Source: a virus | Length of the DNA: 64,000 bases | IMG/VR virus record: IMGVR_UViG_3300042332_000965 | Span: 1 to 64,000 of that record | Reading direction: 5' to 3' (one strand) | In this document: one piece after another, positions 62,206-62,737 of the stretch | How positions within the stretch are numbered: the first letter of the stretch is position 1 | Layout: each line of letters begins with the position of its first letter | Notes under the pieces: generated by a model | Database searches by the model: none | Told to the model about the DNA's origin: nothing | The model's input: only the letters and a program-made list of their open reading frames with translations | Program-made: the position numbers and the translations under genes

Positions 62206-62233
62206 TTGCAGGATTTTGTATTTCTGGTATCAT
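62206..62233 (+). promoter_or_regulatory. sigma70-like promoter of the large RNA
   Basis: TTGCAG at 62206-62211, 16 nt, TATCAT at 62228-62233. Divergent from the Y RNA promoter 65 bp away. Transcription would start near 62240. Confidence 0.6.
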
Positions 62234-62239
62234 GGTGGC

Positions 62240-62737
62240 TATTCCGTAGGGATGCCTGGAAAGCTACCTACGGTTTGGTGTCGGACCCGCAAAGGCGGGT
62301 AATGGATTCACAGATGGGACGATCGCTTGGGCGGATACAATCCGTTTGACAATGTAAGTTGCCTGGGGTTTCCACTACTTAGCCTTGCTGGGTCCAGCGG
62401 ACTGGCTCTATAGTCAGTACGGTTAGTGTCAGGTACCAAATAGCCTAGGGCGTGATTCACGCCATTAGCTACCCTGACGCAAGAGGGCCATAGCCCTCGG
62501 GCTGGAGCGGGACTGACTATCCCGCTGCGGTAGATAGACGGTAAAATCCAATCCAGGCAATGCCTACCCAGCAACCTGGACAGCCATACTGCGAAAGCAG
62601 CTACCGTCCGGCTACCGGACCTAGGGAATCAACATACTCCCTACGCCACGCACCAAGGAATCCAAAGCTACCCCGAAAGCATAGGCACCAAGGCTTATGG
62701 CTGGATAAGGGAAGTCCTCTGGACTTCCCGCATTTTA
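62240..62737 (+). ncRNA. Large structured noncoding RNA, about 500 nt
   Basis: Bounded by a promoter and an intrinsic terminator (GGGAAGTCC-TCT-GGACTTCCC then GCATTTTAT, 62709-62737). No reading frame has a ribosome site. Many perfect stems: CCGTAGG/CCTACGG near 62250-62275, CCCGC/GCGGG, GGCGTG-ATT-CACGCC (62449-62463), GGGC/GCCC, GCGGGA/TCCCGC, GTCCGG-CTA-CCGGAC, TAGGGA/TCCCTA. Size, phage origin and proximity to tRNA genes recall the large ornate RNAs GOLLD and ROOL, but I cannot assign a class. It is not RNase P or tmRNA by visible motifs. Confidence 0.65.

Follow-up and report, generated by a model that had tools for sequence, protein, structure and literature searches.

A candidate non-coding RNA gene of about 500 nt beside a Ro60/Y-RNA module in the genome of an uncultured phage

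ROOL is a large RNA of phages and prophages, a 659-nt example of which forms a nanocage, and GOLLD RNAs are often over 800 nt long (both according to excerpts of PMC12286853). The locus described here belongs to an uncultured dsDNA phage and was analysed in a window of 64,000 bases (bases 1–64000 of a 66,395-base virus record). The best matches of the terminase and portal proteins to named relatives are at about 25–35 %, and the tail genes likewise have only distant named relatives. On its sequence features, the stretch 62236–62740 on the plus strand (RNA2) is somewhat more likely than not an independently transcribed, unclassified phage non-coding RNA gene of about 500 nt.

Gene calling left five gaps of more than 400 nt in this compact genome. 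Open frames that had not been selected overlap the gaps at 44605–45213 (HNH endonuclease match), 59126–59569 (PHROG match) and 34236–34757 (by length only); the two long gaps lacking such a frame are 1–1008 and 61772–62863, and the candidate lies in the latter. To its left, all on the minus strand, are tRNA-Glu (60289–60362, 1.9 kb from the candidate), the gene for an Rsr/Ro60-like TROVE protein (60482–61771; PF05731, 1e-18) and three Y-RNA-like modules in tandem (61812–62100), which were assigned from an Rfam YrlA match and a shared motif, GCGA..GGTTACTTC. Only the module at 61814–61935 has a tRNA-like part (Rfam YrlA match of 38.7 bits; gathering score 69). The candidate is transcribed divergently from this Y cluster if it is read on the plus strand, as the first-pass annotation had it. 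By eye, similar repeated modules precede the Ro60 gene of L002, L005 and L006; some of the tandem Y-RNA-like modules upstream of phage Ro60 genes have no tRNA-like part.

The annotation had called the stretch gene-free, and this was borne out. Open frames of 62206–62863 scored −0.087 to −0.007 per codon with the phage's own codon usage, a range that omits frames running into the next gene, whereas the genes used for training mostly scored 0.1–0.2. PHROG and Pfam searches with four open frames of this region gave no match of note, and tblastn of the candidate's open frames against the loci retrieved gave no match.

The perfect 9-bp terminator that had been reported was found at 62709–62729 (+) by terminator scan and hairpin count, as GGGAAGTCC-TCT-GGACTTCCC; the tail that follows, GCATTTTATAA, is a weak U-tract. 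About 500 nt upstream, at 62206–62233 (+), is a promoter-like site with TTGCAG, a 16-nt spacer ending in TGG, and TATCAT (extended −10). Its description as a good sigma70 promoter was overstated: TTGCAG agrees with the consensus at 3/6 positions and TATCAT at 5/6, with the upstream TG, and a standard scan omits the site. Sites of this grade number 24 in the window and 12–37 in ten shuffles, and four of the 24, this one included, fall between called genes. The site is moderate, no better than chance sites, and is weak evidence for a promoter. A promoter common to the candidate and to the other gene-free stretch (484–520) was considered and rejected: the pattern found only its two source sites, and their 15/24 identical bases were judged, by estimate, not significant.

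Homologues of the candidate were sought in IMG/VR, in phage and plasmid records and in the relatives fetched, and none was found. An Infernal/Rfam scan and a search of phage metagenomes had been proposed in the first-pass annotation. The former was run on 1.2 kb, at the gathering score and at E≤5, and matched the candidate to no family; for the latter, IMG/VR scans with the candidate and its neighbour genes gave no homologue of it. The IMG/VR queries were Rsr, the genes at 63258 and 62864, the terminase (single sequence and alignment), a pattern for the sister-phage RNA treated below and two patterns for the candidate. Rsr retrieved five loci at 39–42 %, the gene at 63258 one recombinant phage and the gene at 62864 none; the terminase alignment retrieved from the genome collection only relatives at 42 % or less. 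An exact DNA pattern of the candidate had 19 matches, none alike outside the pattern, and the other pattern had 0. With blastn, nothing was found in phages and one 23-nt chance match in plasmids; DNA searches in 8 and 7 related records returned weak chance matches only, and a covariance model of the core, run against 46 sources (683 kb), scored well only for the core itself. No comparable RNA accompanied the Y RNAs of other Ro60 phage loci, and of the long relatives the closest have neither Ro60 nor the candidate stretch. The literature searched, which was covered in part, held no report of the candidate RNA or of the hairpin trait described next.

The first-pass annotation had counted at least seven perfect hairpins in the stretch and taken them as a sign of RNA structure. 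The count stood: with loops of 3–10 nt, the candidate has eight perfect hairpins with stems of at least 5 bp and seven with stems of at least 6 bp, compared with means of 3.1 and 0.84 in its shuffles (observed counts reached by 1/300 and 0/300, respectively). As evidence for an RNA it did not stand, the count being only about twice the genome background. All 254 genome windows of 505 nt have on average 5.7 (stem at least 5 bp) and 3.0 (stem at least 6 bp) such hairpins, and seven with stems of at least 6 bp are reached by 5/254, one of which overlaps the candidate. Inverted repeats with arms of at least 6 nt are far in excess throughout the window at a spacer of 3 nt (158 versus 12 expected), 2 nt (52 versus 8.5) and 4 nt (73 versus 11.5); at a spacer of 0 there are 21 versus 17 expected. 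The spacer-3 peak recurs in the long relatives G009 (155 versus 11), G014 (167 versus 10) and G013 (89 versus 5.5) and, more weakly, in the closer relative L019 (22 versus 4). Hairpins with 3-nt loops are thus about 11–17 times as frequent as by chance in the phage and its relatives, and the typical hairpin has a stem of 6–7 bp and a loop of 2–4 nt. This excess is common to the lineage (the window, L033–L042, which comprise G009, G014 and G013, L018 and L019); no excess of like degree was seen in L007, L005, L006, L002, L048, L063 or L053. Hairpins with loops of 3–4 nt are about equally dense in genes (243; 4.25 per kb) and in the sequence outside them (33; 4.80 per kb). Because the trait is genome-wide and includes the protein genes, a perfect hairpin says little here about the presence of an RNA gene.

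Close relatives keep the coding hairpins, whose stems change at about half the rate of the flanks: differences at third codon positions were 0.074 in stems and 0.139 in flanks, 0.068 and 0.142, and 0.120 and 0.195 in the pairs compared. This contrast is absent or slight at about 31–35 % divergence (0.513 versus 0.516; 0.484 versus 0.541), so that hairpins are kept for some time and then turn over. The compensatory share of changes in coding hairpins (0.06–0.10) is near that of the control (0.04–0.07). Template switching is able to create and repair hairpins (according to excerpts of PMC8794818); as the source of the coding hairpins it was rejected, since one-armed multi-base changes were not in excess and inversions accounted for 1/44, 1/40 and 0/42 of the changed loops. 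A separate peculiarity of the window and its relatives is the absence of many six-base palindromes (CAGCTG, 0 versus 19.5 expected; GTCGAC, 0 versus 14.6), and CGATCG, present 45 times in the window, is missing from 60 kb of G009; judged from sequence, the absences are a lineage-specific avoidance of restriction-type sites.

By its fold the candidate remains exceptional within its genome, and fold z depends little on hairpin number (correlation −0.12). Against shuffles, z was −4.8 to −5.1 on the plus strand and −5.5 to −5.9 on the minus strand, with means of −2.5 (sd 1.4) and −2.4 (sd 1.5), respectively, for the genome's own windows; only 2/64 windows on the plus strand and 1/64 on the minus strand were lower, and in another sample (68 windows, plus strand) the candidate ranked 3 (+) and 1 (−). 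The most stable core of the predicted fold, 62395–62532 (+), is made up of four successive stem-loops; two of these are composite stems with internal loops and exceed in length the 6–7-bp hairpins common in the genome. It contains perfect hairpins of 6 bp at 62449–62463, within the composite stem GUGUCAGG...CCUGACGC, of 6 bp at 62483–62498 (loop CATA) and of 7 bp at 62506–62526 (loop CTGACTA); the last loop is complementary to TAGTCAG at about 62412–62418, and pairing between the two is a possibility only. Further perfect 6-bp hairpins of the plus strand are at 62285–62300 (loop AAAG), 62606–62620 (loop CTA) and 62622–62643 (10-nt loop). The z of the core is −4.86 (+), and its energy is −65.4 kcal/mol on the plus strand versus −55.9 kcal/mol on the minus strand; the core was picked after the fact, and 14/908 other 138-nt windows scored as low.

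Among all 138-nt windows of the genome, the one with the most stable fold overlaps a 67-codon gene at 44400–44603 (−), for a small signal-peptide-like protein that the codon-score gene caller overlooked, and since this coding window out-folds the candidate, fold strength alone cannot single out RNA genes here. A 14-nt perfect complement between 62648–62661 (+) and 856–869, in the other gene-free stretch, was kept as a curiosity: its score was attained by 3/200 shuffles, and the fold of the stretch 480–960 is only slightly more stable than that of its shuffles (z −1.3 and −1.5).

These backgrounds bear on the foremost alternative, that the stretch is an intergenic spacer or decayed sequence with the usual hairpin load, its terminator serving transcription that enters from the left. 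We regard this as unlikely, although it is the most serious of the competing explanations. It accords with the similar hairpin density of genes and gaps, with the coding window that folds better, with the chance quality of the promoter and with the searches that returned no homologue; it does not account well for a fold z that ranks with the best few per cent of windows from this genome, or for the length of the stretch, as gene-free stretches so long are rare in this genome.

The sequence on the 3′ side raises a second alternative, a long 5′ leader, or an attenuator, that precedes the virion genes from 62864 on and includes two terminators as well as an internal promoter. Past the candidate, on the same strand, come a promoter-like site at 62759–62786 (TTGACT-16-TAGAAT, 10 of 12 consensus positions), a terminator-like hairpin at 62818–62851 (15 pairs, the stronger of the two that precede the next gene), a gene for a protein of 138 aa with no assigned function (62864–63280) and a long virion-type gene that starts at 63258. 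The shared strand and this succession of two terminator-like hairpins and a promoter-like site would suit a leader, but the promoter-like site lies beyond the first terminator and would suffice for the gene, with no need of the stretch. Moreover, in L007 the copy of the exchanged downstream gene (93 % identical from residue 38) is preceded by different sequence, and we give a leader little credence. The interval 62759–62851 (+), with its promoter-like site and strong terminator-like hairpin within about 65 nt, is possibly a further small RNA or attenuator in its own right. The window's 63417–64000 corresponds to L007:10048–10632, a virion-type gene segment with 84 % DNA and 93 % protein identity; its presence in an otherwise unrelated phage is, from the sequences, a recent exchange.

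Sister phages carry a large RNA of their own, RNA-R, whose support is firmer than that of the candidate. It was found in a gene-free region about 850 nt long, upstream of the terminase and beside a tandem repeat array, in G009, G014, G013 and L045 (approximate positions L033:17753–18630, L037:1275–2190, L041:11420–12330 and L045:9400–10270). Although the alignment holds only three distinct sequences, the minus-strand consensus fold of columns 39–905 has an energy of −266, and 28 of its pairs vary yet still pair through double changes; eight column-shuffled controls gave −163 to −191 and 2–13 compensated pairs. For columns 163–806 there were 22 (+) and 24 (−) compensated pairs, compared with 0–4 in twelve controls, and within 162 columns of the alignment (A5) six pairs had changed on both sides, a number reached by 0/500 shuffles. 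One-sided changes gave G-U and A-C in a ratio of 18:7 on the minus strand versus 8:11 on the plus strand. A T-run accompanies the terminator-like hairpin at the minus-strand end, and the region also has a promoter-like island that is conserved. From the G-U bias and the minus-strand terminator-like hairpin, RNA-R probably runs leftward, opposite to the terminase. No match to it was found in named phages, nor in Rfam at the gathering score. The window's counterpart of the RNA-R site would lie beyond the left contig end, for the contig starts inside the repeat array. Such arrays, with palindromic units, occupy the same relative place in the window (1–200), L033 (18810–18960) and L023 (560–720), and after those of the window and L023 comes a short stretch, CGAACATAA..ATTATCGGACG, that is conserved; the array region is possibly a packaging or replication region. 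Homology between the candidate and RNA-R was rejected, the plus-strand alignment score being attained by 28–75 of 200 shuffles.

The orientation of RNA-R, together with the slightly better whole-stretch z on the minus strand, could be taken to mean that the functional transcript of 62236–62740 is the minus strand. This is very unlikely: the core is better on the plus strand by about 9.5 kcal/mol, the terminator-like tail is on the plus strand, and the scan has no minus-strand terminator-like site near 62236. That the stretch belongs distantly to GOLLD or ROOL, as had been suggested and as phage origin, size and the tRNA gene 1.9 kb away might recall, is highly improbable, the Rfam scan of 1.2 kb having matched neither family even at E≤5.

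An independent plus-strand RNA is plausible because a rare long gene-free stretch, a strong fold and a covariation-backed RNA in sister phages come together. The support consists of more than 600 nt without coding signal, a fold z in the extreme tail, the strand preference of the core, the terminator-like end and at least one large conserved RNA in the same phage lineage; the chance-grade promoter and the slightly better fold of the whole 505 nt on the minus strand count against it. Of the independent non-coding RNA originally put forward, then, the gene-free stretch and the fold survive, whereas no homologue was found and the hairpin count mostly reflects a trait of the whole genome. Transcription would start from the extended −10 site at 62206–62233, and the transcript would accumulate as a stable folded RNA and act as such. 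By analogy with ROOL and GOLLD, its most likely function would be that of a structural or scaffolding RNA made in infection; the adjoining Ro60/Y-RNA RNP might handle or stabilise it. The bolder proposition, a large phage RNA of a new class without kinship to GOLLD or ROOL, in a lineage with at least two unrelated large RNAs, self-assembling or serving as a scaffold and handled by the adjoining Ro60/Y-RNA complex, is a speculation that we consider improbable as a whole.

If it is transcribed, the candidate would extend the large phage RNAs by one more unrelated sequence family, and one such RNA would adjoin a Ro60/Y-RNA module. For genome scans, perfect hairpins and fold z should be judged against the genome's own background, because maintained short hairpins fill the protein genes here and one small protein gene has a more stable fold than the candidate.

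Compared with known systems, the candidate resembles ROOL in being phage-encoded, hundreds of nucleotides long and free of protein, with an elaborate predicted fold and a tRNA gene nearby. It differs in being shorter and without a covariance-model match. ROOL is further characterised by a conserved, covarying fold with several pseudoknots and by a homo-oligomeric RNA nanocage. It is often near tRNA islands; the candidate has a single tRNA-Glu 1.9 kb away, which is not an island. With GOLLD it would share the character of a large phage-encoded RNA; it is much shorter at about 500 nt, with no model match and no recognisable conserved 3′ domain. YrlA (RF02553) is its neighbour, about 140 nt away, divergent and beside the Ro60-like gene, but the candidate is without the GCGA-containing motif of the modules, and there is no Y-RNA match inside 62236–62740. 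RNA-R is about 850 nt long, lies upstream of the terminase beside the repeat array and resembles the candidate neither in sequence nor by covariance model; the two have in common the phage lineage, a gene-free setting, a promoter-like island, a terminator-like end and an elaborate fold.
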